Below are positions 21,497 through 62,982 of a DNA stretch of 64,000 nt, piece by piece. A model generated the notes under the pieces. The model did no database searches. It saw only the letters and a program-made list of their open reading frames with translations, and had not been told where the DNA came from. The first letter of the stretch is position 1. Each line of letters begins with the position of its first letter. The stretch covers positions 34,742,613 to 34,806,612 of the forward strand of contig OX439038.1 of assembly GCA_949317995.1 (NCBI GenBank). Reading direction: 5' to 3'. Made by a program: the position numbers and the translations under genes. Source of the stretch: Acholoe squamosa. Its lineage: Eukaryota; Annelida; Polychaeta; Phyllodocida; Polynoidae.

Positions 21497-22641
21497 TCAG
21501 CTGCGTTTTACTCTAAAAGATATCCCTTTCCAATCTGGTGGATATGTGTCTTTAGGATCAAATTCACTTTCCAATTCACTATTGTGAGCGGGAAAATCAG
21601 CATAATACAGTACACTGCCCCCTGCCAGCCATGCAGCCCACCAACCAAATGTCCCCACTGTCATAATAGTGTGATTGCAGAAGGACAAGATGGCAAGGTC
21701 CTCTATATCATAGTGCTCAGCACTGAAGGCCACTGGGGCTATGGTCTTTGGTACATGCTTAATACTCCATTGCATATCATCTGAACATACTACAAACAAC
21801 AGATTTTGATGCCTAGAGGCAAAGAAGATCATTGCTGTCTCTAAATACTCTGCTGTTGCAACTGTATATCCCTTTTTGACATTATGTTCTTGTAACATAT
21901 CGCCCCTCCTTATGTGGATACCTACAAAGGTAACAGCTCTTGCTGACACATTCCTTAGGCCGTATTTTTCCTCATAAGCCTGCTGGAGGTATCTTCTACC
22001 CAAACTCACAATTTTATCCCTAAAACGGAAGTGATGTTTTATCACATGACTCTGCTTGACAAAGTACTTCCAAGACTGGTAAAATCCTAGCAGTAGAATA
22101 TCCAGGTCATAATTGAGGTTCTCTGTCCTGTCATCATATAAATTAGCACCATCTTCAAGAAACAGAGACCAGCTTCTCGGGCTGGTTGCCTCTGTCATCT
22201 CTGTAGCACCAAGGTGAAAGTAATTCCTGAGGAGCTGGAAACCAGGCCAGAGGGGAATCATATAGTTCCTTTGACTAATCCCCCTCAATGCAGCATAAGT
22301 AAACATATGGTTACCAAGTCCACCCTCATGGCGGACCGTCAGGTAGTGTTTATGCTTGGATTTGTTACTTGGTCTGTATTTTGGGTTCTCTGCCAAATAT
22401 ACTGGTACGGCCGGAAAATCGTCTTCGCCATCTAGGCTGGTAGGCATGGGGGCCTTTGATGAAATGGTGACATTGTTTGGTGATGATGTTATTAGGGTAT
22501 GGACTATACTGCTGGGTAGTTGACTTTGAAGTGAGGTATTCCATAGGATTGTAAACTGAAGGACGCTATAGAGGAGGGTCACAGTCCCCAGCACGGAGAG
22601 AAAGTACAAGGGGCGTCCACGTCCCAGCCTCGACAGCACAC
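21497..22641 (-). CDS. GT11 alpha-1,2-fucosyltransferase, final exon
   Basis: The exon encodes 380 residues and stop. It is a type II Golgi membrane enzyme of CAZy family GT11 that transfers fucose from GDP-fucose to galactose-containing glycans in the secretory pathway. Order: short basic stretch RLGRGRP, transmembrane anchor (LYFLSVLGTVTLLYSVLQF), Ser/Thr-rich stem, then the catalytic domain. The family motifs GGLGNHMFTYAALRG, VGIHIRRGD (GDP-fucose site) and VGTFGWWAAWLAG are all present and in order. Several N-x-S/T sequons fit a luminal domain. The frame stays open to 22846, but an acceptor tttaattgcag ends at 22642, the extension crosses a homopolymer-rich stretch, and no ATG lies between acceptor and anchor. 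A short upstream exon carrying the start is therefore expected; I did not find it. No damage seen. Confidence 0.85.
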
Positions 22642-23270
22642 CTGCAATTAAATGAACCAGCACATTGAAACAATTTTGATAGTAACATTTATTCGAAGAG
22701 ACTGGTGAGATATGTGCTTGAAATCCCCACCCCCCCCCCGGCCCACAAAAAAAAAGGTGAAAGGATTTTCTACTGACATTTTGATGCAAGTGCACACCCC
22801 ATGTTTTATGTCCCGACTCCGTTGTGTAGCTGCCCTTTTTTCCCAAATTCTATACAGAGTGTCAATGTGTTTCCCAATCTTCTAGTGGTGTGTACCATGC
22901 TTTTTAGAACGTATTTTCTCCAGGGGTGAGTGAGTAGAGAGACCTTAATACTCAAAAGTCTACACGGATATCCCAGGATGGGTATACCTTCCCCCAGCTT
23001 TGGTTGACATGGCCTCTCCGTCGCACACTATGCGTCTGTAGTAAGTATGGAATCTAAAAGCCCCCCCCCCCCAAGATGGAAGTGCACGGGCATTATTTCT
23101 ACCTACATCCGGCCCAAAGATTTGATCACCATCGCCATCCTTGGAGGAGAAATTAACTTTTACCTTGGTCATAACGCAGGGCCCTAGCTGAGGGGGGGGC
23201 GGGGACGAAAGTGCCCTGTTGTTACCTTAAAATGCGTTATGGGTCAAAACTGACAGAGAAGTTCTTGGTT
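22642..23270. other. Intron or 5' region of the fucosyltransferase; no exon found
   Basis: Contains C/G homopolymers (22728-22739, 23061-23072, 23194-23205). The upstream coding exon of the fucosyltransferase should be here or further right, but I cannot identify it. Confidence 0.35.
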
Positions 23271-27732: not shown

Positions 27733-30387
27733 TTGCAGCTTTGCTGCACCCTCTCGACCCCAAGCATCCTCGTTAGATGACTTTAGGGAGCATTTCGAAG
27801 GTCTCAATAAAGGTAATGAAACAGAAGTCAGGGCTAATGATGGCACATCTGCCACCCCAGTCATACCAGGCACTCTCAGCCATGCCCACTTAACTATCCC
27901 TTTACAGTGGAGGAAGTTGAGAGACAAATTAAAAAGTTGAAGAATGGGAAGGCTGCTGGGGTTGATGCTATTGTCTATGAATTCATCAAAAACAGTCCTA
28001 CTGAGCTGGTCAGTCATATTGTAGACTATTGCAACTTAGTTCTCTCCTCAGGCAAGATACCCTCAGCCTGGAAAATAGGCATTATAGTTCCCCTCTTAAA
28101 ACATAAAATGAGCCCCAAAGATGCAGACAACTACAGGGGTATAACACTTCTTAGCTGCATTGGTATTTACATCTCTTCTAAACCAAAGACTGAGTGTTTA
28201 TCTAGAATCCAATAGCCTCCTTGGGGAAGAGCAAGTGGGGTTTAGGAATGAGTATGCCACATCAGACCACATCTTAACATGAACCTCATAATTGACTACC
28301 TCCTAACCCGAAAGAAGAGATTATACTGTGCATTTATTGATTATATAAAGGCCTTCGATATGGTAGATAGAGCTAACCTATGGAGTAAATTACTGAGTTT
28401 AGGTATATCTGGAAGAGTCTTCAAGGTCATAAAAGCCCTTTATACTGACACTAAGTCCTGTGTTTGATTTAACAATCAAACCTCATCATTATTTAGATGT
28501 GAGATGGGGGTCAGGCAAGGGGATAATCTATCCCCTCTACTATTCTCTTTATACCTAAACGACCTTGAATCTCACCTAAAGAGCAGATGTAATGGATTAT
28601 TAGTGGAAAATAAGACTGAGGATATGGATATTTTTGTTAATCTACTCACTCTACTCTATGCTGATGAACCAATACTTCTCTCAGATTCTGAAACTGATCT
28701 TCAGTGATCACTTGACACTCTTTATAATTATTGCCAGAAATGGAGGCTGAGTGTAAATACAAGCAAAACAAATGTCATGGTTTTCTCCAGAGGTAAGGTA
28801 AGAAAGATACCGGCATGGCACTTTGGTCCAGATATAATCGAGACAGCCTCGGAGTACACTTATCTTGGTGTGACCTTTAATTATAATGGTTCCTTTAACA
28901 AATGTCTATCTAAACAAGTACAGCAGGCGAGGAGAGCGATGTATGGTGTCAAGGTTAGAAAACTACAACTACCTATCGATGTAGAATGTCAGCTGTTCGA
29001 TAGTTGTGTTGTCCCAATTCTGTGATATGGATCAGAGGTTTGGGGGTTTTCCGACATGTCGCAATGCAAAAATATGCTGTGTCTACATAAGAACACATCC
29101 AATAATGTTGCCAGAGGTGAGTTGGGTAGGCACAGCCTACAGTATTATATCACTCAGAGAATGCTTAACTATTGGGCCCGCTTGGTAAATGGGAGAGATT
29201 CAAAAATGAACTATTCTGTCTACAAAATTATGAAAATGTTGTTTGATAAAGGTTTAGTACAGTCCAAATGGCTATCCAAAATTAAGAGTTCACTTAATGA
29301 CTTAGGCCTAACCTACCTTTGGGACAAGAACTGTTTCAACAGAGTGGTTTAAAAATCGGATAGGTGCAACTGGGTCAGACCAGCAGGTACATATATGGCA
29401 CAATTCCTTGGCCAACTCCAGCCTTTGCCGGAGCTACAATATCTTTAAAGGTGACCTCAAACTACAGCCCTATCTGCTGGAACTTCCCAAAAAGTATAGA
29501 ATTGCACTGAGCAGATTTAGAGCAGGAAACTATAAACTTCCAATTACTACTTGTCGTTATAGGGAAATAGAATTTCATGATCGCATCTGCCCCTTGTGCT
29601 CCAGTAACAAAATAGGAGACGAAATACACTATATAAGAGACTGTGGTTTCTTCACAAATGAGCATAGTAAATTAATCAACTCAAATTACCTTGTAGGTGA
29701 TGTGAACATTAGAATCTCAGAGCTATTTAACACTAAACATCTGCAGCAACTAATTAATCTAGCAAAGTTCAAAATTCACGTCTGGCAACCTCAACTGACT
29801 GTAGCCAGGAACTGGTGCTAACTAATAGACAGGCACTAAATATGCAAATCATTTGTATATATATACCAGTACATGTGATATATTGGGCCAAGTATGTCAT
29901 GTAAACAGCCATTAACTTGTTATACCATGCAGTTGTGCTGCATTTAAAACAGGCAAGAGTCTGGTGCTCATCTAGGAAGATGTAAATAACCAGTAGTGTT
30001 TACTTGTATTTACCCCCTAAGTTACTTGGGGGATATTTTTAGAGATAGATACCTGTAACCATAGTTTGTGGAATGCCGTATGGTATCCTACTCCCATATC
30101 TAGTCCTGACTACATGCTTGGTACTAAGCTAAACTTGGTGCTCATTTATGGCCATTGTGAACTGGTTTATTAAGGATATATTGTCATGTCATATTAGTCT
30201 GTATTCAAATCTAGTCTTAAGATAGTCTGGTGCTACCTTAGCTTGTATAGAAACATGCTTTCTGTAGTTATGTGTGACTAGGTTTACTATTCAGTTCATT
30301 ATTATGGAGTTTTGTATCTCAACTATGTATCTCATGTACTCATTGAGGTTTAGAGAATAAAATCATTGTCATTGTCATTGTCATTAC
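27733..30387 (+). pseudogene. Decayed LINE, reverse transcriptase part and 3' end
   Basis: Resumes the element of 23271-24370. Fragments in order: LKNGKAAGVDAIVYEFIK (27940), the RT palm block with FIDYIKAFDMVD (28327), GVRQGDNLSPLLFSLYLNDL (28507), and a YADE where active enzymes have YADD (28657-28668). Thumb motif YTYLGVTFNYNG follows. The C-terminal part has a zinc-knuckle-like CPLCSSNKIGDEIHYIRDC (29590). Stops and frameshifts separate the frames. An AATAAA and an (attgtc)n tail at 30356-30387 mark the 3' end. Clade not assigned. Dead copy. Confidence 0.8.
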
Positions 30388-32776: not shown

Positions 32777-33780
32777 TGGTGGGGAAGTTTGAAGAAGTCA
32801 TAAAATTACCTAATTCAAAATGACCTGACCTCTATTCTTGTTAATAAATTTGACAATTCAAAAATCCATTGGTAACTTAAGGAGTGCTCATTACTTGTCA
32901 ACAAGGTGGCAGTGGATGTACATGCAGACATTTTTATGGTCCCTTCCCCATCAGACAGGCTGCAATTTTCCCACTCATCCCCTTCTATGGTAATTCACAG
33001 GCTTTTTCACTGAAAAGGCATGATATTTTTTTTACCTCTCCCTTGACTCCACTCAGCAATCTATACGAAAAGTTTTTCCCCCACAGAACATAAGATCCCC
33101 AAGATTACAGCCAGACATTCGGCCCCACAGTCTGGTAATTTCTGCAGGCCCGGTTGGATTTTGACAATGGCCTCGGTCCCACGAGTTTTCATTTGCTTGA
33201 GGTGTCAAAATTACTTTGCCCCCCCTCCCATTTCCCCCCCCCCTCGATAGATAGGCCTAAAAAACACTCCCTTGGAGCTCTTCTCCACCCTGTTCCTAAT
33301 TTTGTTGAGGGCTTACTAGTAACGGTACTCGGGGAGATGTAAAGGGGACCACCACCCCCAGCTGATGTGACTCCATTACTTTGTAAGACCATCAAGTGGA
33401 AGTGTGATTGCAATCGATGGTCTTCTTAGAATTTGTGATACTTTCTGAGATTTTGTATCAGACTATGGAACTAGAGAGTTTTTTTAGGACCTTTTGTGAC
33501 AGGAAATACTTATTTATGATCACTACCATAGTACCTGGTGTATAAGGCACAATGCACTTATTATCATCATCCACTTGGCATAAAAATGGTTTTTTTTTTA
33601 CAATGAAAAAAAAAGAGTTTTTATTGGTTTCCCTATTGGTTACTTGGTTGAAAATTGGTTAAAAAAAATGTTTAAAAACGTTTTTTTGCCAAGTGGGCAG
33701 TCTTATGTTTTAAAGGTGCATCCCTCGCAAATGGTGCATCTGGTGCATAAGGACCCATAAGCTGACATTTTTTTGAACAA
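32777..33780. other. Repeat-derived intergenic sequence
   Basis: At 32879 the sequence ggagtgctcattacttgtca resembles the left end of the Harbinger-like MITE family (see 42786). At 33538-33755 a hairpin MITE has arms ccacttggcataaaaat and tttttttgccaagtgg, with ends tgtataaggcacaatgcac and ggtgcatctggtgcataagg. No coding region seen. Confidence 0.45.
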
Positions 33781-34394
33781 ATTTAAACTTTATTTGGTCT
33801 AGTGGTACAATCATCATGTAAACATAGGCGTGATGTGTATTGTTGTATGTATAAGAATTATAGCTTCTGTATGTATTTGCCTAAGTACATACGTTGATAT
33901 ATTACATGATTACCCATTTTATAAGGTAATTCATCTTGATAATAACACGACCAAACAGTTAATGACCAGATCGTCATTTAAAAAATGTTGTTATGATCTG
34001 ACCATATAAAATATTACCGGTATTCATACAATTATAAGATATAATAACAATAATTTTTGAACAATTTGGGGCACTTATATTCTACTTTAAATATAGAATA
34101 ACATTAATTACCCTCCCTCGTATCATAAATGATTTTTACAGCATGCACATATTCACTCCAATAATAGCTAACATTATGCAGGCTTTTGACAAAGTCGACG
34201 CAGACCATCATACGTAGTCTAAGATAGACCGTTACTATTGTTCCTTGAGGATTAGGTTTAACTCAGTCATTTCTTGGTGCAGTATGCAATATGTACAGTT
34301 CAATAATAAATAACTTAAGCAAGCTTTGACAAGAACCACTTAGGCCATTACAAGTAGTCTGGATACAGTTTGTATAATTATTTTACAATACATT

Positions 34395-37247
34395 TTATAT
34401 ATTAATAGATTCTATCATACATTTCTTTGATAAGGTCTTAAATTTATCTTTGTCCCTAATATTCCTGATATCAGGCTCTAGATTATTCCACGTTTGGGCA
34501 CATAAACATTCAGGAGATTTTGTGTAAGCTGTACAATTAATTTTCATATAATTTAATACAGGAGCATTTGAAAATCTTGTCGTTCTAACAGTAGGTTTAA
34601 TATACTCTTCCTTTGTGGATCTCTTATGAGCTAACATTTTTATATGGTGTAGTCTTCTAGCTTCAAGTTTCGGGCTCTTTGTGTCCCTATGTACAAGATC
34701 TGTTGGGGTTAGTACATGTACATCTAGACAGGTTTTTAAACATTTATTTTGCAATCTTTGCAATACTTGTAACAAATCAGCATTAGATCCATTGTATAAA
34801 ATATCACAGTAGTCAATAATTGGTATTATATGCATTTTGTACATTCTTAATCTTGCTTCAGTCGATAAATATTTTCTTGTTTTATACAAAATTAATGATT
34901 TGAATCGAACACTCTTGATAACATTTCTCACATGCATATTAAAATTCATTTCTTGGTCAAGGGTAACCCCTAAGTATTTGTATGATTGAACATTCATTAA
35001 AGTTTTACCATTGAGGACAATCCTAGGTTTTTGTATTTTTTTCAATTTAATTGCTGAAGCAAAGGTCATTATTTTCGTCTTGGTTTCATTCATAGTAAGT
35101 TTGTTGGCTGAAGACCAGAGAGAGAAGGAATTAAGTGCAATGGTCAGCTGATTTGTTAAGGCGTCTAAGTTTTTTCCGGATACATACAGTACAGAGTCGT
35201 CTGCATATAGCAAGGTTTTATGTACATCATTATCAGAAATGCAGTCATTAATATACAATAAAAAGAACAAAGGACCCAATATTGAGCCCTGTGGTACGCC
35301 ACATGTTAGATTTGCTTTATCTGAACGTATATGGTTGGCTATAGCACATTGCTGTCTCCTTGATAAATAATTCTCAATTAAGGTTAAATTTCTATTTCTG
35401 ACTCCGTATTGTTCTAATTTCTTTAATAATATTAAGTGATTTACCGAATCAAATGCTTTTTTTATATCAATAAAGGCAGCCATTGTTATATTACCTTCAT
35501 TTCTATTTTTTAATACATCGTCAACTAATACTGAGATGGAGTCTAGTGTAGATTTACCTTTCTGATATCCACCTTGATTTTTCGATAAAATATCATACCT
35601 TTCTAAATGGTCACTTAGTTTGTTATGTATAAGTCTTTCTAGGATCTTTCCCGGTACCGGTAGAACACTTATCGGTCTAAGGTTAGATACATTGGATGGG
35701 TCCCCTCCTTTGGGGAGAGGAGTAACCGTAGCAATTTTCCAACTATCAGGGATTTGGCCTGTGTTCGTAATCAAATTAATGATTTTTATAAATTTTTGAG
35801 GGAACTTTAACATAGTTTTTTTGAATATATCTGTAGATAAATAGTCAATAGCAGATGACTTGGATATATCTATGTCAGATAAGCATTTCATAATTTCATC
35901 ATCTGTAAAGACCATCTCTGGCATATCCACCTCACATCTCGTGCCCTTAAAATTAAAAATGGTTTGATGTTGTTCCGCCAGCCTAGGACCAATTTCTGTG
36001 AAAAAATTATTTATATAAGTAGAGGTGTCATTAATTGAAATTACTTGGCCATTTTCGTCAGTTAACATAATTGACTTGCTGTTAGATTTATTAGAAGGTA
36101 AAATATCTTTAATAGTGCTCCAAAATTTCTTAGAATCTTTCTTAAATACCTCTGATAGGTTGGAATAATATGTTTCCTTAGCCGATTCAATGTCTCTATT
36201 AACCTGGTTTCGACTCTCTCTAGCTCTGTGCCACGATATGATATCCAAATTTTTCCTGGCTAACTTTAATAAAGCATTTTTGTCGTTGATCTTTTCAAGC
36301 AGCTCATTAGTCATCCATGGGCTAGGTTTGTCTATCACCTTAAAGCTTTTTACCGGGCATTGCAGGTCTAACATTCTTTTTATCATATTTTCTAATATAG
36401 TCCAGCAAACATTTGGGTCATTTGATTCATTAAAATGGTCCCAATTACAATCTTCTAAGTCTAGATAAAATTTTTCTAAGTTAAGTTTATTATATGATCT
36501 TCCAAAAAAAGTTCTAAAATTTTTCTTTGTGTGTATTTGGGTTTTTAGGATATGTACCGGTAGGTGGTCTGATAGGTGTATATTCAATGCACCACTGGAG
36601 GTAATGGAATCACAGTTTGAGAAGATCAAGTCTATACACGTGTTGGTACCTGATGTGGTTGTGACCTCGTTAACCAGTTGTACTAAGTTAAAATGATCAA
36701 AGGTTTCTATAAGTAGTTGTTTGTCTGGGGTATTGTTTAGTACATTTACATTTAAATCCCCTAAAATAAAAATATCATATCTATCCAAATTGTCTATTTG
36801 TAGCAGTAAAGCTCGCATTGTGTTACAAAATTCCATAAGGTTTCCCGCAGGTGGTCTATAGACATTACATACAATACATTTTTTATTTGCACCCTTGGCT
36901 GATAGTAGCCATTGAACTTCTATATTTTCATTAGACCTGTTTAAGGCCTTAAACCTGTCTACTGAACATGATAGACTTTCATCGACATATGCACAGAGTC
37001 CACCTCCTCTATATATACTGATACGATCTTGACGAAAAAGATTATACCTTGGGAAGCTATACAAGTTACTACAATCCATTTCGTTCAACCAGGTCTCAGA
37101 AAATAATATGATATCAATGAAATTATTATCCAGCTCCTCCTTGATTTTTGTAAATTTATTTCTTACACTCCTGGCATTCATATGTATTATTGAGAAACCT
37201 TTCCTGAATTTATTTTTTAAAGACATGCTTGTATCTGGTAAATACAT
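34395..37247 (-). CDS. LINE ORF2: endonuclease and reverse transcriptase
   Basis: 950 residues. Residues about 17-235 are an apurinic/apyrimidinic-type endonuclease with NARS (Asn24), SETWL (Glu51), GDLNVN (Asp164) and SDHLP (Asp227, His228). Residues about 500-760 are the reverse transcriptase, with LRPISVLP, FIDIKKAFDSVNH (Asp594), CGVPQGSILGPLFFLLYIND and LLYADDSVLYVSG (YADD 681-684), followed by thumb motif YKYLGVTLDQEMNF. The C-terminal 190 residues lack a clear zinc knuckle. The protein nicks target DNA and copies the element RNA at the nick. Motif order places it with CR1/L2-like LINEs. The ATG used is the first in frame; downstream starts are possible. Confidence 0.9.
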   Translation of the reverse strand: MYLPDTSMSLKNKFRKGFSIIHMNARSVRNKFTKIKEELDNNFIDIILFSETWLNEMDCSNLYSFPRYNLFRQDRISIYRGGGLCAYVDESLSCSVDRFKALNRSNENIEVQWLLSAKGANKKCIVCNVYRPPAGNLMEFCNTMRALLLQIDNLDRYDIFILGDLNVNVLNNTPDKQLLIETFDHFNLVQLVNEVTTTSGTNTCIDLIFSNCDSITSSGALNIHLSDHLPVHILKTQIHTKKNFRTFFGRSYNKLNLEKFYLDLEDCNWDHFNESNDPNVCWTILENMIKRMLDLQCPVKSFKVIDKPSPWMTNELLEKINDKNALLKLARKNLDIISWHRARESRNQVNRDIESAKETYYSNLSEVFKKDSKKFWSTIKDILPSNKSNSKSIMLTDENGQVISINDTSTYINNFFTEIGPRLAEQHQTIFNFKGTRCEVDMPEMVFTDDEIMKCLSDIDISKSSAIDYLSTDIFKKTMLKFPQKFIKIINLITNTGQIPDSWKIATVTPLPKGGDPSNVSNLRPISVLPVPGKILERLIHNKLSDHLERYDILSKNQGGYQKGKSTLDSISVLVDDVLKNRNEGNITMAAFIDIKKAFDSVNHLILLKKLEQYGVRNRNLTLIENYLSRRQQCAIANHIRSDKANLTCGVPQGSILGPLFFLLYINDCISDNDVHKTLLYADDSVLYVSGKNLDALTNQLTIALNSFSLWSSANKLTMNETKTKIMTFASAIKLKKIQKPRIVLNGKTLMNVQSYKYLGVTLDQEMNFNMHVRNVIKSVRFKSLILYKTRKYLSTEARLRMYKMHIIPIIDYCDILYNGSNADLLQVLQRLQNKCLKTCLDVHVLTPTDLVHRDTKSPKLEARRLHHIKMLAHKRSTKEEYIKPTVRTTRFSNAPVLNYMKINCTAYTKSPECLCAQTWNNLEPDIRNIRDKDKFKTLSKKCMIESINI

Positions 37248-37495
37248 ATAAACTCGACATAGTCAACATGCTGTATAATGTATACATATGTGATCATTCT
37301 ACTAGTGCATGTTACATTAATCCAGGTCATTGTAGACCACGCGTTATAAAAATATACATACCCCCCCCCTCCACAGGCTTACAGCTCTTCTGGCTACCTA
37401 TGGTTAACAATATATGAGTCGGCAGTTAAAAATTCAAGGACTATGGCTTTATATCAATTAGGAACTTAGCTATATAATATACCAGAACATATTTA

Positions 37496-38863
37496 TTAAT
37501 TTTCATCAGGATTTCCATGTACTCTGGTTAGTTGCGCACGGATTTTTTGAAGGATTTGTCCCATCAGGTTCTCCCCCTTAACATTTCCAGACGTACATTG
37601 ATTTGCCTGCCCGAAGTGCATTTTCACCCCCCATATAGGGTTGAAGCTGGCCTCATACAAGTTCTTGTTTCCAGTAGAGATTAGATAGTCCCTCATATAT
37701 GGTATGGCAAATTTCTGCTCATTGATCTCCTGCATGACAGTGGCAGCCATCTTGTTCCAATCTGCAGTAGGTTTGATTTTCCTTGCTTCGTACATAATTT
37801 GTACCGGGTCTTCTAACTTCTTTAGGGATAGTGCTAGGTTGTTCTGACCACAAGCTTGGGCCTTAGACACTTGATAAGCCTGTTCGGAGCTGTTGTATTC
37901 CACTCCTCTGTATGATATTTGGCAATGGAAAAGATTAGACAGTTTATGGTGGTGTGATTTGAACATTAAACCATCTGGTGTTTCGGCTTCATTGGCTTTT
38001 TGCATGTTCAGGTCTTGGTATGGGAGCTGATGAAGTTGACTGTGCTCGAAGGGCTTTTTGTCTATTATAATTTTACGTTGCCTCAGCTGGGTGTTGTAGC
38101 CCTGTCGTTTCGCCAGATAATGCATAGCACGTAAATCATTGAACTCCTTTTGCTCCACTTCTCCAAGTTCATCCCCAATAGATACATGCTTATATAGAAA
38201 CTTGCCCTTTAAATTCTTGAGGAGTCTCATCAGCTTCGGTTTGGTGTATACGTTGTTGAACACAATTTTAATCGGTCGATATGTCTTCTTGTTTACATCA
38301 TGGGCGCCGCCATCTTGGTTTCGTATGACGGGTGTTCCTGCGCGACTACAACTTTGAACACTTTCGATGCCAAAATCCGCGCGCACATCCCTGAACAGTT
38401 GGTTAATCTTTTCTAGTAGATTTTCGTTGTCGGATTCCTCTAGGCCTTTTACCACGACAATTTTCCTCTTAATGTCCTCATCTATCTTCTCAAATCTCTG
38501 TGCATGTTTTAATAGCAGGTCTGTTTGCGCTTGGATATTTTGTGTGTGTGCCGTCATGGCGTCTCCAGTCTCTTTGACAGTGGTGGATACAGAATTTAAT
38601 GTTCCTTCTGTAGAAGTTAGCCTAGTTGTTAATCCGTCCAAAGTAGTGTTAATGGTTGTAGAGGTCTTATTTAAGGAATCAATAGAATCCTTGAACCCAT
38701 CGAGACTAGTTTTCATCTCAAGTTGTAGTTCCTCCACTGTTTTAACTCTCCTGTCAATAGAGTTGACGGCGGCGATGACATCCTTCAAGGTGGCTTCCGG
38801 TGGGAGCATTTCGATCTCTTTTCCTCTCCTTCTAGTTTGAAGTTTGTCTTTAGCATTTGACAT
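37496..38863 (-). CDS. LINE ORF1 protein with coiled coil, RRM-like region and C-terminal NADAR/YbiA-like domain
   Basis: 455 residues. Residues 25-135 are Ser/Thr-rich heptad-like coiled coil (SLDGFKDSIDSLNKTSTT, LDGLTTRLTSTEGTLNSV). Residues 133-275 look like an RRM-type core plus C-terminal domain as in other LINE ORF1 proteins (KRKIVVVKGLEES; YRPIKIVFNN; LLKNLKGKFLYKHVSIG). Residues about 302-445 match the NADAR (YbiA, DUF1768) pattern: HKLSNLFHCQISYRGVEYNS, SSEQAYQVSKAQ (Glu327), Trp369 followed by a KF pair (384-385), LISTGNKNLYEAS, IWGVKM (Trp411) and KGENLMGQILQKIR. Known NADAR proteins include the E. coli YbiA N-glycosidase acting on riboflavin intermediates, and ADP-ribose-linked hydrolases. 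The role in a LINE is not known to me. Frame intact. Confidence 0.85.
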   Translation of the reverse strand: MSNAKDKLQTRRRGKEIEMLPPEATLKDVIAAVNSIDRRVKTVEELQLEMKTSLDGFKDSIDSLNKTSTTINTTLDGLTTRLTSTEGTLNSVSTTVKETGDAMTAHTQNIQAQTDLLLKHAQRFEKIDEDIKRKIVVVKGLEESDNENLLEKINQLFRDVRADFGIESVQSCSRAGTPVIRNQDGGAHDVNKKTYRPIKIVFNNVYTKPKLMRLLKNLKGKFLYKHVSIGDELGEVEQKEFNDLRAMHYLAKRQGYNTQLRQRKIIIDKKPFEHSQLHQLPYQDLNMQKANEAETPDGLMFKSHHHKLSNLFHCQISYRGVEYNSSEQAYQVSKAQACGQNNLALSLKKLEDPVQIMYEARKIKPTADWNKMAATVMQEINEQKFAIPYMRDYLISTGNKNLYEASFNPIWGVKMHFGQANQCTSGNVKGENLMGQILQKIRAQLTRVHGNPDEN

Positions 38864-38985
38864 CCTGTATATATCTGCTTGGAACTTTTATGAAGTAGTA
38901 TGTCAAGTTTGACAACGTTCCTATGTGTATATCCTAGTAAATATGTAGAAATTCTACAGTCCAGTTTTCAACCGCTCAACCTTGC

Positions 38986-38997
38986 GCCGCCATCTTG
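38986..38997 (-). promoter_or_regulatory. YY1-like motif in LINE 5' UTR
   Basis: On the minus strand caagatggcggc matches the AAGATGGCGGC core bound by YY1. It lies about 125 bases before the ORF1 start. A YY1 site near the 5' end positions transcription in mammalian L1; a like role here is inference. Confidence 0.4.
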
Positions 38998-39070
38998 TTC
39001 TCTCTTGTTTGGCATGTTTCTCTGTTCATTTCTTGATTACTGCTAGTTCATCTATTTTACTCTGCATGTC

Positions 39071-57640: not shown

Positions 57641-60300
57641 ATATCAGGAAAAGGGCACCTCGGGAAATTGGGGAGCAAAATCAGGCAGACCTGATCAACC
57701 TGTTCGATTGAGCAGCCGATCAAGAGGACCAGCAGATCCTATACAGTTGGGACCCAGAGACACTCAGATAGCAGTAACAGCCTTAGCCTGGAGATCAGGG
57801 GAACTGCCAACTATAAAAGAACCCGCCCTGGAGGATGAAGGTGCTGACTCCCCCTCACGGCGCCGAACGAGTCAAAGGAGTCATCACCCTGATGAGGAGT
57901 TGTTGAAAACTAGGGCTGAAGCACGAAGACAACTCCTCACATCCACCCCGTTATTTACGGAGCGGGGCCAGCGTGAACTGGCGGATTCGACCGGGACTGG
58001 CGGCGCTGCTATCCAGAGGCAGGCCTTGGATTCTAGAGAGAGTAGCAATATTCCCTCTGGAACCTTGGGGACCCACCAAGAGACATCACTGGGAAGGCTT
58101 CATATAGAAACAGAAAGTCAGGTGGCGTCTTGTATTGGTGTTGCTTCTGGAGATTCCAGTAATAGAAAGAAAGACAAGGCTGAGTCGCCCTCAGGCACTC
58201 GGCACCGGAGCCATCGTTTGGGGGAACAACCATCGCGTAAATTAGAACAACTACCAAGTAATTTAGAAGAAATTTTGGCTTCTGACGCAGCTGAAAACAC
58301 CATAGTCTCTCCTGATAATCGGAATAATACCCAGATCACTGCCGAAAATGAAAACTCTCAACATCAAGTAAACCAAGTGATCCCGGCAGGAAGGCAAGGT
58401 GATTCGAGATCAAAAGCTGGAAACCTTGAGGGAAGTTATTTGGAGTCAATTCAAGGAACTACAGGTAGTATTGAGCAGTATCCTGTATCTGATAGTGGTG
58501 AGTCTACTGACTATTTAGATATAGTAAATACCAAGTCAACAGAAGAGAAAAGGGGAGAAAATCAGAATCTCGGCACTCACAATTATACACGATTACCCTC
58601 AGGGATAGGCTCTACTGAAACACCTGTATGGGATTATAGTGATTTGTCAGCGCGGCCTTTGGCGGCCCAGTGGGCACGCACCAGTGTTAAAACGAGACCT
58701 CAGTGGGAACAAGCAGGACGAGTGTTCCCAGAGGCACAATATGAGGATACATCTGGAAAATCAGGATCACCTGGAGAAACCAGGGAACCCTTTTGTAAGC
58801 TTTCGAGTGACACTTCCAGAGAAGAGAATCCCTCTGACACTTTGGATGACCTAATCGTCGTATCTCCCGGGGAGAATTCCCGAGTAGCTCCTAAACCAGT
58901 GACCGCGGCTACCGTGGTCAGTAATGGAGAGCTTTCTGAGGTTTTCGACGACGTGGAGATAGTGTATGGTGGAACCTCTAGTGAATCTCCAGATAGGAGA
59001 GAAGTCCCCATCAGAACAGCGATAGGCAGAAGGTCTCGCGTCGCATCTGAGGGCCATTTGTTTTTGTTCTCTGATACAGGCATCAGTTTAATTGACCTTA
59101 ATTCTACATCTGGAGACACGGTGGGACAGGTGAGTAGTGAGAGTCGAGGTGAGTCATGAGGAGAGTCAGGGACCTGTGCATACCTGGGATCCTCGGAAGA
59201 TAACGGGACTACCTCGCGGCCGAGTCCAGAAATTATTAGCACCGCTTCGGCTGAAACTAGCGGATCAGGAGAGGAAGGAATCTCTGAAACTAACAATGCC
59301 CTCCACCCTAACCCTGTGGGAGGATGTTCTGACGATCATATTACTTTTAATGTCAGCAGCGACACCTGGGCCTCGTTGCATCGAACTGTTGGCGTTATTG
59401 AGGAGATTACTGAACGTTCTAATCGTAGGTAGGAGGAGTTAAGTGGGTTTAGAACCGCATTGCGAGAAGCCACGGAGGCTTTGTTGCAACAAATAAGAGT
59501 ATCACATGCCTTGTATGGACAAGAAGTCAGACGTCAGGGAAGCCTAGTGGGAACCCGTTTCGTCAGCGAGAGAGAGGAAATCGCCTCCTAAACTCAGAGG
59601 AGACGGGAGGAAATTCAGGAGCAACCGCTTCACCTGCGGAGGAGGTAGCACAGAGACAGGAGTCGCTGAGTGTAGGGAAAGCTCCAGCTCAGAATTTGAG
59701 GCTAAAAAGAGCTTATTCAGACTCCACTTTATTCTCTCAGCGCATCCCTATAGGGGCGACCAGAGAAAGGTGCGTGTCGGGTGACGACGCGCGATCCGAG
59801 AGGTGTGAGGAGGTAAATGAGAGGAATATTGAGGCCGCTATTGACGTGATACCAACACGAACTGACGATCGCAGCGAAGTCTCGAACGGATCGCAGACTA
59901 TAGCTAAGGTCTTCAAACCACCAGGTTTGAGCCATATTATTGCTGAGCGAGGAGTGGAGCCAGATCCTGTGACCCCGCAGGACATTAAACCCCCACCCCG
60001 TTATGCGTATGCGGCGGTCGGAGGCACACCTGTGAAACCACAAATTGCCTTAGAAGCACAAATTGCCTTAGACGCTACTACCAGCGTTAGGACCGTTTCC
60101 ATGAATGGTCAGGTGAGCGTACCATATCACTCAGAGGTTTATACCTCCATTAGTGACTTGAGTGGTCAGGATAGTGCGGGTGAAACCTCTGTCAGACCGG
60201 CTTCTGCCTTTTCCCACGGTCGCCAGTTATTGAACTTAGAGTGTCAGCAAACTGCCCCCCAGTGGAACCACCCAGTGAATCTGGCGACCAGCAATTAGCT
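57641..60300 (+). pseudogene. Gypsy element, long N-terminal gag region with stops
   Basis: Continues the frame left at 51071. 57642-59156 is open for about 500 codons: polar, Ser/Glu/Arg-rich, without predicted domain. In-frame stops then occur at 59157-59159, about 59430-59432 and about 59589-59591 with coding-like sequence between, so it decays by point mutation. A shifted frame at 59696-60298 (with a local duplication QIALEAQIALDA) leads up to capsid. An N-terminal extension of this length before capsid is long for Gypsy elements. Confidence 0.6.
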
Positions 60301-60834
60301 GACACTATGGCCTCGGGAGGAATGGCCAAGTTGCCTAACATGAAAATACCCACCTACTCGGGCGGTAACAATGAGAATTATGAGCGATTCTTCGATGAAA
60401 TGAATATTTTGAAGGAAATTAATGGGTGGAACGATCAGGTGTTTTTAAATATTGTGAAATTTCATATAAAGTCAGGAGCTGCGACATGGCTGAAATCCAT
60501 TCCTGAGGGAGAAAAGGATACTCTGGAGAAGGTCAAAACCATTCTGAAAGAAACCTTTGGAGACAAACGGCCCTCGTGGCTTAAACATCGGGATCTCAAT
60601 AATTTGAGGCAGGAAAAGAACGAGGACGTCACTAGCTTTGCCCTAAGAGTCAAAGGCTATATGAAGCCTGGAATGGAAGATGGGGAGTTTATCTCTGTCT
60701 TTGTAAGTGGCTTACACAGGGGAATAGGAAACGAGCTAGCCAAGGCTGAGCTAAAATCTTTCCATGATGCAGTCTCCATGGCAGTGCGTTTAGAGTCGGT
60801 GGAGAAGAAAATCCCCGACAAGAAAGGAGCCTAG
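60241..60834 (+). CDS. Gypsy gag capsid domain (Retrotrans_gag)
   Basis: 197 codons. From residue about 30 the layout is that of Retrotrans_gag: KIPTYSGG, YERFFDEMNI, AATWLKSIP, LKETFGD, DVTSFALRVKGYM and FVSGLHRGIGNELAK. This is the self-assembling shell protein of an LTR retrotransposon. The frame overlaps the preceding one by 58 bases and ends at 60832-60834; the next segment continues after a one-base shift near 60825. The frame is a fragment of the gag pseudogene, not an independent gene. Confidence 0.75.
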   Translation: MSANCPPVEPPSESGDQQLADTMASGGMAKLPNMKIPTYSGGNNENYERFFDEMNILKEINGWNDQVFLNIVKFHIKSGAATWLKSIPEGEKDTLEKVKTILKETFGDKRPSWLKHRDLNNLRQEKNEDVTSFALRVKGYMKPGMEDGEFISVFVSGLHRGIGNELAKAELKSFHDAVSMAVRLESVEKKIPDKKGA

Positions 60835-60837
60835 AGG

Positions 60838-61325
60838 ATGAGGTCGATTCCGAATTCAGTAAAGTACTGGAGAATTATGTCATGCAGGGAGTCCCCGGAA
60901 ATTATAATTCAGGGGGATATGGCATGTCGAGACCCCCATACAACCCTGGACGAGGAGGAAATGGATTTGGTCGAGGAGGAAGGTACGCCAATCAAGGTTA
61001 TTTTAATAACCGTATGCAGGGAAATTCTGGTGGACGAGGAGGTCTGAATGCAGATGAGTATCGAAAGAGGTCCTTGCATCGAGCCGAGGCTTATAAACGA
61101 ACCATGGACCGTCTGCATGGTTTGATGCCCGCCAGTGAGCCAGAATCCAAGGCAGGAGGGCCAACTGGTAACACACCATACTGTATTATACATGACGCCC
61201 AGAGTCACAGTACTGAGGAATGCGCCCTATTGGCGGACTACCATCACAATCTAAATGCCCGAACCGGACCCACGCCGGATTCCAAGGGATCCAACAGTCA
61301 TGCTGGCAATGGTCAGGGAAACTAG
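60838..61325 (+). CDS. Gypsy gag nucleocapsid region
   Basis: The frame that includes 60882-61325 is Gly/Arg/Asn-rich (GGYGMSRPPYNPGRGGNGFG, RGG boxes), then charged helices, then a C-x3-H-x4-H-x5-C cluster (CIIHDAQSHSTEEC) that may bind zinc. RGG and zinc elements bind the RNA genome. It stops at TAG 61323-61325, immediately behind a G GGA AAC slippery heptamer. Confidence 0.7.
61316..61322 (+). promoter_or_regulatory. Probable -1 ribosomal frameshift site (G GGA AAC)
   Basis: The heptamer gggaaac is positioned as X XXY YYZ in the gag frame and is followed at once by the gag stop codon. The protease frame is open in the -1 register across this point, which is the arrangement used for gag-pro readthrough. 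A downstream stem or pseudoknot was not worked out. Confidence 0.55.
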
Positions 61326-61732
61326 TGGGCTGGCCTGCACCTATTATTGAATTGCAATTGATTCAGGGGGACAGGTCGGCTGACCACGATAATAATACAC
61401 AAAGTGCTTACTTTTTGGAAATTATTGTTGAGGGGGAAGAATATCAGGGATTGGTGGACACTGGAGCTTCTGATTGTTTTATAAGTCAGGAACTGAGGAA
61501 TGACCTACCACTCGACGCAATATGGGATGTTATGGACGGAAATCAACAGACAGTGAGAGTGGGAAATAAAAATCAGTGTGCGATACAGGAAACCATTAAG
61601 TTGCACTATAGTCTGGACAGCATAGTGATTTACTATCATTTTCATGTAATGAAAACATTGGCACATCCAATGATTTTAGGTCGCAATATTCTCAAGGACT
61701 TCAAGGAATCAATGCGGATCAGCATAGGGTAA
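61326..61732 (+). CDS. Gypsy retropepsin (aspartic protease)
   Basis: In the -1 frame relative to gag. The core shows an EEYQGLVDTGASDCFISQ active-site strand (DTGA), a VRVGNKNQ flap-like region, and HPMILGRNILKDF, the ILG motif closing retropepsins. It processes the gag-pol polyprotein as a homodimer. All key residues are present. The frame ends at 61730-61732; the next pol frame is shifted by one base near 61712, so the gene is broken after the protease. Confidence 0.75.
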
Positions 61733-61734
61733 GA

Positions 61735-62982
61735 GTGTTTAATGGCACGCCCGTATCCGCTAAACAAGGTTTATGCTTGCGGCCTAGACAAGAGCAGATA
61801 ATTGCTGTTGAACCCTGGGGAAAACTGGAGGTCAATCAGGGGGACACTGTCGCCCTGGAACCGTCTGGGCTTACTATAGTGGCCGTGGAGTATGCCCTTA
61901 ACTATACTGATAAGAATTGGTGGGTAAAAGTAGCCAACTTTACTGATCAATTCGTATTTATTGATCGTAACGACGTGCTAGCTTATGTGCGCGAGGTCAA
62001 CGCGCCGCCTTTGGAATTACAGGAGGTACGACAGGTATTAGACCTGGATCGCTGGACCCTAGGGGATGATACTCCCAGCAGTTCATCAGAAGGAACCGAG
62101 TTGAATGACATCAATGTAGTGCGATCTAAGTCGGAGAATGTCTCGAATATCGGCGTTAGAAGCGAAACTAGTCAGGAAGATAGCACTGGTCGAGTCATTA
62201 AACGGGAGAAGATAATGAACTTAGATCTGGGTGAAACCTGTATGACCCTGGAGGAACAAATGAAATTTAAGGCAATGTTCGCAGAAAACATGCATGCCAT
62301 TGCCTTCAATATGGAAGAGCTGGGTCATTGCACTTGGTCTCCCATGAAAATAAAAGTGAACGAAGAACAGGGAATATGTACCACCCGACCATACCGGTAT
62401 TCACCACTCAAAATGGACATAATCGATGAGCAGATCAAGGTACTGCTCAGAATGGGGATCATTGAACCCAGTGACAGTGCATGGAGGAGCCCTCTGGTGG
62501 TGGTGCAAAAGAAAGATGGTTCAGCAAGATTATGCACGGACTACCGTACACTGAACCTTATGACTGAGGATGAAACTTAACCTGTGCCCACAGCTCGGGA
62601 ATTGTTTCTGTACATAGCTTACAGGAAACCCATTATCTTTTCTGCCATAGACCTACTGAGCAGGTATCACCAGTGTGATTTGCATCCCGATAGTCGCAAG
62701 TACTCAGCTTCACCCTCAGGGGTATGGCAGTGGACTAGAGTGCCTTTTGGCATGAGACAAAGCCCATGGCAATTCACGAAGATAATGTCCATGGCTTTGA
62801 GCGGATTAACCTCACATACCTGCCTAGCTTATTTAGACGATATTGTGGTTTTTGACCCTATAGTGGATGATCACATTGGCAGTGTCGATCAGGTCTTGAA
62901 GGCATTACACCGCGCCGGGCTGACCATTAAACCTTCTAAGTGTGATGGGGTCGATGCGAGATTAAGTTCTTGGGACATGTAG
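61735..62982 (+). pseudogene. Gypsy pol: linker and reverse transcriptase, with a stop
   Basis: Frame 61735-62580 carries a linker with ANFTDQFVFIDRNDVLAYVR and the start of the reverse transcriptase (TTRPYRYSPLKMDIIDEQI, GIIEPSDSAWRSPLVVVQKK, ARLCTDYRTLN). A TAA at 62578-62580 interrupts it; the same frame continues to 62982 with FSAIDLLSRYHQ, PFGMRQSPWQFTKIM and the catalytic LAYLDDIVVF. The motif order is that of Ty3/Gypsy. A one-base shift near 62950 moves the following IKFLGHVVS segment out of frame. Not functional as it stands. Confidence 0.8.

Follow-up and report, generated by a model that had tools for sequence, protein, structure and literature searches.

A NADAR domain kept by purifying selection in the ORF1 protein of a young, multi-copy LINE family of the annelid Acholoe squamosa

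A stretch of 64,000 nucleotides of the Acholoe squamosa genome (contig OX439038.1, positions 34,742,613 to 34,806,612; hereafter the window) was analysed around an open reading frame that the initial annotation had described as the ORF1 protein of an intact LINE, fused to a NADAR/YbiA-like domain. Both ORF1 and ORF2 were found to be open, the latter with a strong match to RVT_1, in agreement with that description, and ORF1 was found to lie on the minus strand, which the annotation had not given. The features of the element, by window position, were the following:

33768..38998, minus strand: whole LINE element, 5231 bp, delimited by the homology limits among genomic copies
38864..38998, minus strand: 5' UTR of about 135 nt, beginning with (A)CAAGATGGCGGC, from the copy alignment
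37496..38863, minus strand: ORF1, 455 aa, an open reading frame running from 38863 down to 37496
38474..38788, minus strand: putative long helix/coiled coil of ORF1, residues ~26-130, from the secondary structure of a low-confidence model
38168..38470, minus strand: RRM-like domain of ORF1, residues ~132-232, from the fold order of the model and a profile match to L1 ORF1p
38009..38167, minus strand: CTD-like region of ORF1, residues ~233-285, placed by position
37529..37951, minus strand: NADAR domain of ORF1, residues 305-445, from Pfam, alignments, model and Foldseek
34395..37247, minus strand: ORF2, 950 aa, from the open frame, RVT_1 and relatives
36528..37199, minus strand: APE-type endonuclease of ORF2, residues ~17-240, from alignment blocks
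34959..35711, minus strand: reverse transcriptase of ORF2, residues 513-763 (RVT_1, E 4.3e-36)
33768..34394, minus strand: 3' UTR with AATAAA and a short A-tail

The homology with other copies started between window positions 38993 and 39008 in 38 of 40 cases and ended between 33765 and 33773 in 31 of 40, and the flanks were dissimilar among the 16 copies compared. No target-site duplication was found for the window element, and the matches seen in the 16 copies were of 8 bases at most. ORF2 starts 248 nt downstream of ORF1; an ORF2 with endonuclease and reverse transcriptase, common ends and many insertions are all traits of a LINE/non-LTR element. The 5' end of the element (38980-38998, minus strand) opens with CAAGATGGCGGC, which we take to resemble the YY1 site that starts human L1.

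The N-terminal part of ORF1, which the initial annotation had regarded as that of an ordinary LINE ORF1, is predicted to be of the L1 type (type II), with a coiled coil followed by one RRM. This assignment leans on the relatives P0001-P0003 (see below), because ORF1 by itself gave no match to an L1 ORF1p structure at E≤1; a profile built from ORF1 and these three relatives matched human L1 ORF1p (2ykp, E 2.1e-5; 2yko, E 3.4e-5), in accordance with the annotation, the 2ykp match stopping at profile position 247. The model of the full-length ORF1 had a mean pLDDT of only 46.9. In this low-confidence model the RRM-like region showed the order strand-helix-strand-strand-helix-strand and the CTD-like region a helix and strands, and the comparison of residues 132-241 with ferredoxin-like folds gave middling Z values of about 5-6. 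Coiled-coil families of Pfam matched ORF1 weakly, below cut-off, and Transposase_22 gave no row at E≤10 with four ORF1 members, in a search whose filters drop most weak matches.

Alignment of 79 ORF2s showed that the endonuclease blocks N, E, YRPP, GD.N and SDH were conserved. The window's own ORF2 gave no Pfam endonuclease match; PF14529 was found in its relatives. The length of 950 residues, the motifs and the presence of PF14529 in relatives suit the Jockey superfamily (CR1/L2-like), of which the window LINE is a candidate member. Membership of L1/Tx1 was tried by means of the endonuclease and rejected: in a PDB search the window endonuclease gave no endonuclease structure match at E≤1, while that of L233, another NADAR-bearing LINE of this genome serving as positive control, matched strongly (E 3e-18 to 3e-21), so that by this test the window LINE is not of the published Tx1 kind. 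The reverse transcriptase matched those of L1 (1.3e-15) and R2 (2.6e-12) in the PDB, as expected of related reverse transcriptases, and these matches do not decide the clade.

Elsewhere in the window, a gag (PF03732, 60241-60834) and an aspartic protease (PF00077, 61220-61732), both within 60241-62580 on the plus strand, look like pieces of a Gypsy-type LTR retrotransposon. A reverse-transcriptase-like stretch, 25% identical to ORF2, was seen at 27883-29028 on the plus strand, and an open frame of 449 aa of glycosyltransferase family 11 (PF01531, E 2.9e-41) at 21497-22846 on the minus strand.

The C-terminal NADAR domain, placed by the initial annotation at residues ~302-445, was delimited by Pfam to residues 305-445 with a strong profile match (PF08719, E 1.1e-21; 78.3 bits, above the curated cut-off of 35.1). 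The predicted structure of residues 290-455, whose underlying alignment took in 49 NADARs encoded on bacterial and viral contigs, reached a pLDDT of 88.9 and a pTM of 0.85. When this model was compared with the PDB by Foldseek, two of 35 rows had E≤0.001, and both were NADAR/YbiA structures, namely the ADP-ribose-bound NADAR of P. nicotianae (8bau, E 1e-9, TM 0.84) and E. coli YbiA (2b3w, E 7.8e-7, TM 0.73). The model thus compared well with YbiA, and a YbiA-like fold is predicted for the C-terminal domain of ORF1. In pairwise alignments, the window NADAR was 37-39% identical to its five best bacterial/viral matches and 28-32% identical to the NADARs of P0001-P0003.

Residues E43, K50 and E125 are ligand contacts in the P. 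nicotianae NADAR (PMC11543638) and, with the chain numbering taken as shifted by two, which is our reading, they align with E327, K334 and E404 of the window ORF1. Among the copies of the family described below, E327 was kept in 47 of 49 and K334, E404 and W369 in all 49, as was W411 in the 48 copies readable there. Residue 408, three before the active-site Trp, is Asn in the window ORF1 where NADARs have Asp. Across the family it was His in 26/49 and Asn in 23/49; all eight of the more diverged copies had His, and the other 41 were divided between Asn (23) and His (18). Asp was found before the active-site Trp in 12 of 12 phage/plasmid NADARs compared, and the loop near this position is one residue shorter in the window NADAR. 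The same position is homologous to D343 of the nematode protein SNA-3, which was mutated together with E251 and W346 as homologues of critical YbiA residues (PMC9303266). The initial annotation's claim that key residues are kept was therefore right for E327, K334, E404 and W411 and wrong for the Asp position. Conservation of 90% or more across 87 other NADARs was seen at 31 positions, of which the window NADAR kept 18 and differed at 13; this conservation arises partly by construction, because most of the 87 came from scans with patterns holding M, K and D (three of 176 loci were dropped from the comparison set for stops).

The genome (1.48 Gb, 63 contigs) was searched with ORF1. A first scan of the genome contigs gave 0 confirmed loci. 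At least 95 ORF1 match rows were obtained (93 candidates scored among 3768 first-look candidates). Four of them, the window's own row included, were 99-100% identical over all 455 residues and had no stop, a fifth was 99% identical with one stop, and the remaining rows went down to 69% identity; residue 400 or beyond was reached by 86 of 95. Stretches of 5.5 kb were retrieved for 40 of the 94 remaining rows, eight more diverged rows were added later, and NADAR was present in all 49 copies fetched and aligned. A full ORF1 was found in 29 of 41 copies, a figure favoured by the choice of copies by ORF1. ORF2 was complete in the stretch retrieved for 5/41, and both frames together likewise for 5/41. 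The window element belongs to a young, multi-copy LINE family, and the at least 95 match rows rule out the one-off fusion, absent from all other copies, that the initial annotation had allowed for.

Selection on the domain was evaluated with 41 copies (the window copy plus 40 of the 94 further rows, which scored high and were mostly full-length), whose codon variants were sorted into private, present in one copy, and shared, present in two or more. Private variants of NADAR comprised 51 nonsynonymous and 25 synonymous changes (omega ~0.57) and shared variants 42 and 145 (omega ~0.08), a contrast with a Fisher p of 1.6e-11; repetition with a DNA alignment gave 0.60 and 0.08 (p 9.3e-12). Private and shared omega were 0.69 and 0.11 for the RRM and, in the DNA alignment, 1.17 and 0.08 for the ORF2 reverse transcriptase, 0.52 and 0.05 for the endonuclease and 0.86 and 0.17 for ORF2 residues 771-940, one further ORF2 part having a private omega of 0.84. 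The last nine residues of ORF1, outside NADAR, were relaxed (private 0.28 and shared 0.50 by codon sorting; 0.37 and 0.46, p 1.0, in the DNA alignment).

A shared omega of 0.08 like that of the reverse transcriptase, together with a private omega of ~0.6, rules out a passenger domain, and therefore the lineages that were still jumping kept NADAR as strictly as they kept the reverse transcriptase. Absolute omega values are biased low because the copies were picked as high-scoring by ORF1, a choice that lowers private omega in ORF1; the private/shared contrast and the unselected ORF2 of the same copies, in which private omega was also below 1 in most parts (range 0.52 to 1.17), are partial guards against this bias. 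Codons carrying multiple changes were excluded, and 27 of the 820 pairs had an undefined dS and stayed unbinned. Purifying selection keeps the NADAR domain, as the initial annotation had supposed it may. Such selection speaks to a need for the domain and not to its role.

NADAR domains were also found in other LINEs of the same genome. PF08719 yielded 3224 first-look candidates there; 150 of these were scored, and all 150 exceeded the cut-off. By eye, none of these places overlapped those of the window family, whose NADAR (78.3 bits, from the window) lies below the weakest of the 150 (85.9 bits). By hand count, 18 of the 150 rows had an open frame of 530 aa, four one of 757 aa and five one of 463 aa. 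Six NADAR stretches were fetched, in a non-random choice guided by score and by the length of the open frame. Four of them represented families with NADAR in ORF1, that is, a sister of the window family (L235), an L1/Tx1-like family (L233) and two of other architecture (L234 and L238). The ORF1 of L235 has 455 aa and is 53% identical to that of the window, and the start of its ORF2 is related to the window ORF2 (65% over 120 aa). In L233, an ORF1 of 529 aa with NADAR at 381-525 is followed by the start of an ORF2 whose endonuclease matched L1 and Tx1 endonuclease structures (best E 3.4e-21). This ORF2 start gave no significant match to the window ORF2 in either direction (best E 0.69 and 1.8), and NADAR-bearing ORF1s thus accompany endonucleases of no fewer than two plainly distinct groups.

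L234 has an ORF1 of 757 aa with NADAR at 415-555. Behind NADAR (L234:2813-3337), the best PDB match was 4c1b (E 0.049), an esterase encoded by an ORF1, which hints only weakly that the ORF1 of L234 is of the esterase type. The ORF1 of L238 has 828 aa with NADAR at 581-734, and its endonuclease was 29.7% identical to that of the window over 317 aa. Between ORF1 and the endonuclease frame of L238, a frame of 240 aa (L238:3302-4021) was observed; it scored 19.7 bits (E 0.0011) against Pfam NarE, below the cut-off of 27, and gave nothing clear in a PDB search. The L233 and L234 kinds were each represented by two further pieces, with identities of 97.7-99.1% over 295-350 aa. L243 matched L238 at 100% identity over 339 aa, and L244 was a further relative of L238 (44%). 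Inspection by eye showed E/K(or R)/E in all four other sampled LINE families, with Arg in place of Lys in L233; L238 had Phe or another residue at the conserved Trp position, and P0001 had Lys in place of the third-position Glu. The two remaining stretches, L236 and L237, held stand-alone NADAR frames of 222 and 247 aa with the top scores among the 150, and are perhaps candidate host genes.

A search of 5.77 billion proteins with ORF1 gave one relative, P0001 (22% identity over 90%), and a search with the resulting two-row alignment gave three, P0001-P0003, with 12, 31 and 40 member sequences; each of the three resembles an ORF1 in its N-terminal part and ends in a NADAR. ORF2 had 622 relatives at E≤0.001, and among the 120 listed the best was 64% identical over 98%, the closest (P0005-P0007) being 61-64% identical. 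Scans of viral contigs with ORF1, ORF2 and NADAR gave 0 confirmed loci each. In a tree of 91 rows, four LINE NADARs fell on one side of a branch with support 98/28, not starred, and in a tree of 47 rows, which took in 37 of the 87 comparison NADARs, eight LINE NADARs fell in three places; a single clade for the eight was not rejected in the latter (AU p 0.496). By these trees, in which long branches abound, the LINE NADARs may have arisen once or several times. An origin from L236 or L237 was considered and found no support: both grouped with a Kofleriaceae NADAR (83/80), apart from the LINE rows, a weak placement with long branches.

The initial annotation knew of no NADAR domain described in a LINE. 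Several Tx1 LINEs of the oyster Crassostrea gigas, from different families, have, however, been reported to carry NADAR-like domains in ORF1 (PMC12477816, 2025), so the occurrence of NADAR in a LINE ORF1 was already known as a kind. Judged by titles, among the open-access articles listed in our searches it was the one to join NADAR and retrotransposons. The oyster elements are, like the window element, invertebrate LINEs with NADAR in ORF1, and L233, with its L1/Tx1-type endonuclease, looks like their kind. By the PDB search above, the window endonuclease is not of the Tx1 type, a comparison made with the oyster elements by description, and the available text of that account holds no selection test, unlike the present analysis. 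The same source reports NADAR in the Pol of an Ectocarpus Gypsy element, likewise a retrotransposon with NADAR in a protein of its own, but an LTR element of a brown alga with a Pol-linked domain and not a LINE ORF1 (PMC12477816). Our searches of the open-access literature, Repbase aside, yielded no published account of NADAR in a LINE outside Tx1, of a selection test on a LINE NADAR or of several NADAR-bearing LINE families in a single genome, and 'NADAR' is absent from the main text of a survey of bivalve LINEs (PMC10294476). On the basis of these searches, all three points are apparently new.

ORF1s of CR1/L2 elements hold PHD, esterase, RRM and CCHC domains, and shuffling of ORF1 has been argued (PMC4120745). 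Their type II forms likewise combine coiled coil, RRM and CTD outside L1, with varying accessory domains, among which the available text does not give NADAR (PMC4120745). Nidovirus polyproteins are another case of NADAR in RNA-based parasites of animals, although there the domain sits in a polyprotein that also holds the polymerase, unlike the nucleic-acid-coating protein of the window element (PMC9503650); our NADAR model matched proteins of yellow head virus and gill-associated virus. Guanine de-ADP-ribosylation has been described for bacterial, phage and oomycete NADARs (PMC11543638, PMC11125620). The DarT1-associated NADAR antitoxin shares with the window domain the active-site E and K and an acidic third position, but this is Asp in the antitoxin, which stands alone, and Glu in the window (PMC11543638). 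What NADARs do physiologically in eukaryotes, animals among them, has been called unclear (PMC11125620).

We favour, with a probability of about 0.45, the reading that a particle-tethered NADAR strips ADP-ribose from LINE nucleic acid. By comparison with L1 ORF1p, the window ORF1p would coat the element RNA, and the NADAR fused to it would therefore ride in the RNA-protein particle of the element. Host ADP-ribosyltransferases, the assumed writers, would set marks that block reverse transcription or integration; NADAR would hydrolyse ADP-ribose from bases of the element RNA, the cDNA or the target DNA (guanine, by analogy with DarT1-NADAR), and removal of the marks would undo the host block. 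The removal of ADP-ribose marks proposed by the initial annotation is in this sense plausible. CARP-1 occurs in a shellfish host. It exemplifies the guanine-type ADP-ribosyltransferases and is named in PMC11543638. ZAP is a PARP-family protein. According to a review, ZAP together with MOV10 blocks L1, and PARP1 and PARP2 act at L1 integration sites (PMC8535693); the two PARPs at these sites may be a second target of NADAR.

NADAR might instead be a binding module and not an enzyme, and would then serve RNA handling in the particle by gripping either an RNA end or a ligand resembling ADP-ribose. The replacement of Asp by His or Asn and the shortened loop would suit this, as would the use of NADAR domains in an RNA complex by nematode SNA-3 (PMC9303266) and the link of NADARs to RNA repair (PMC9503650). 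The retention of E327, K334, E404 and W411 in nearly all copies and of E/K(or R)/E in the other sampled families speaks against it, although ligand binding alone could also keep these residues, and we consider this explanation unlikely. A slightly lower likelihood is given to proteins as the substrate: NADAR would free ORF1p, ORF2p or the targets of PARP at the nick from ADP-ribose, and would thereby counter PARP-family restriction or tune PARP in target-primed reverse transcription. PARP1 binds ORF2 and PARP2 is activated at the L1 gap, but the two PARPs help rather than block L1 (PMC8535693), and removal from proteins would therefore have to be selective; moreover, the NADAR activities described in the sources available concern nucleic-acid guanine adducts and riboflavin intermediates.

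It seems quite improbable that the substrates of NADAR are small metabolites, be they ribotides or ADP-ribose signals in cyclic or linear form, and that their hydrolysis quenches a host signal in the cell while the particle marks are left alone. YbiA does act on riboflavin intermediates (PMC9303266), and phage NADARs have been argued to target soluble ADP-ribose derivatives (PMC9503650), but a cis-acting fusion that coats RNA would be poorly placed for bulk removal. A one-off or passive fusion without function is hardly credible given the at least 95 ORF1 rows, the shared omega of 0.08 and the several other families; relaxation was seen nowhere within NADAR and only in the nine residues behind it.

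Returning to the removal of ADP-ribose from element nucleic acid, a broader and more doubtful proposal can be made: NADAR may have been traded among the ORF1s of unrelated ORF2 lineages in response to host ADP-ribosylation of retrotransposon nucleic acid, an animal mirror of DarT-NADAR in which the LINEs would hold the antidote. If the domain works like its relatives, LINEs encode an eraser of ADP-ribose from nucleic acid, and this, if true, would point to an as yet unknown host defence that writes ADP-ribose marks in animals. The selected, multi-copy family with its intact members is a system in which the role of NADAR can be tested by point mutation.
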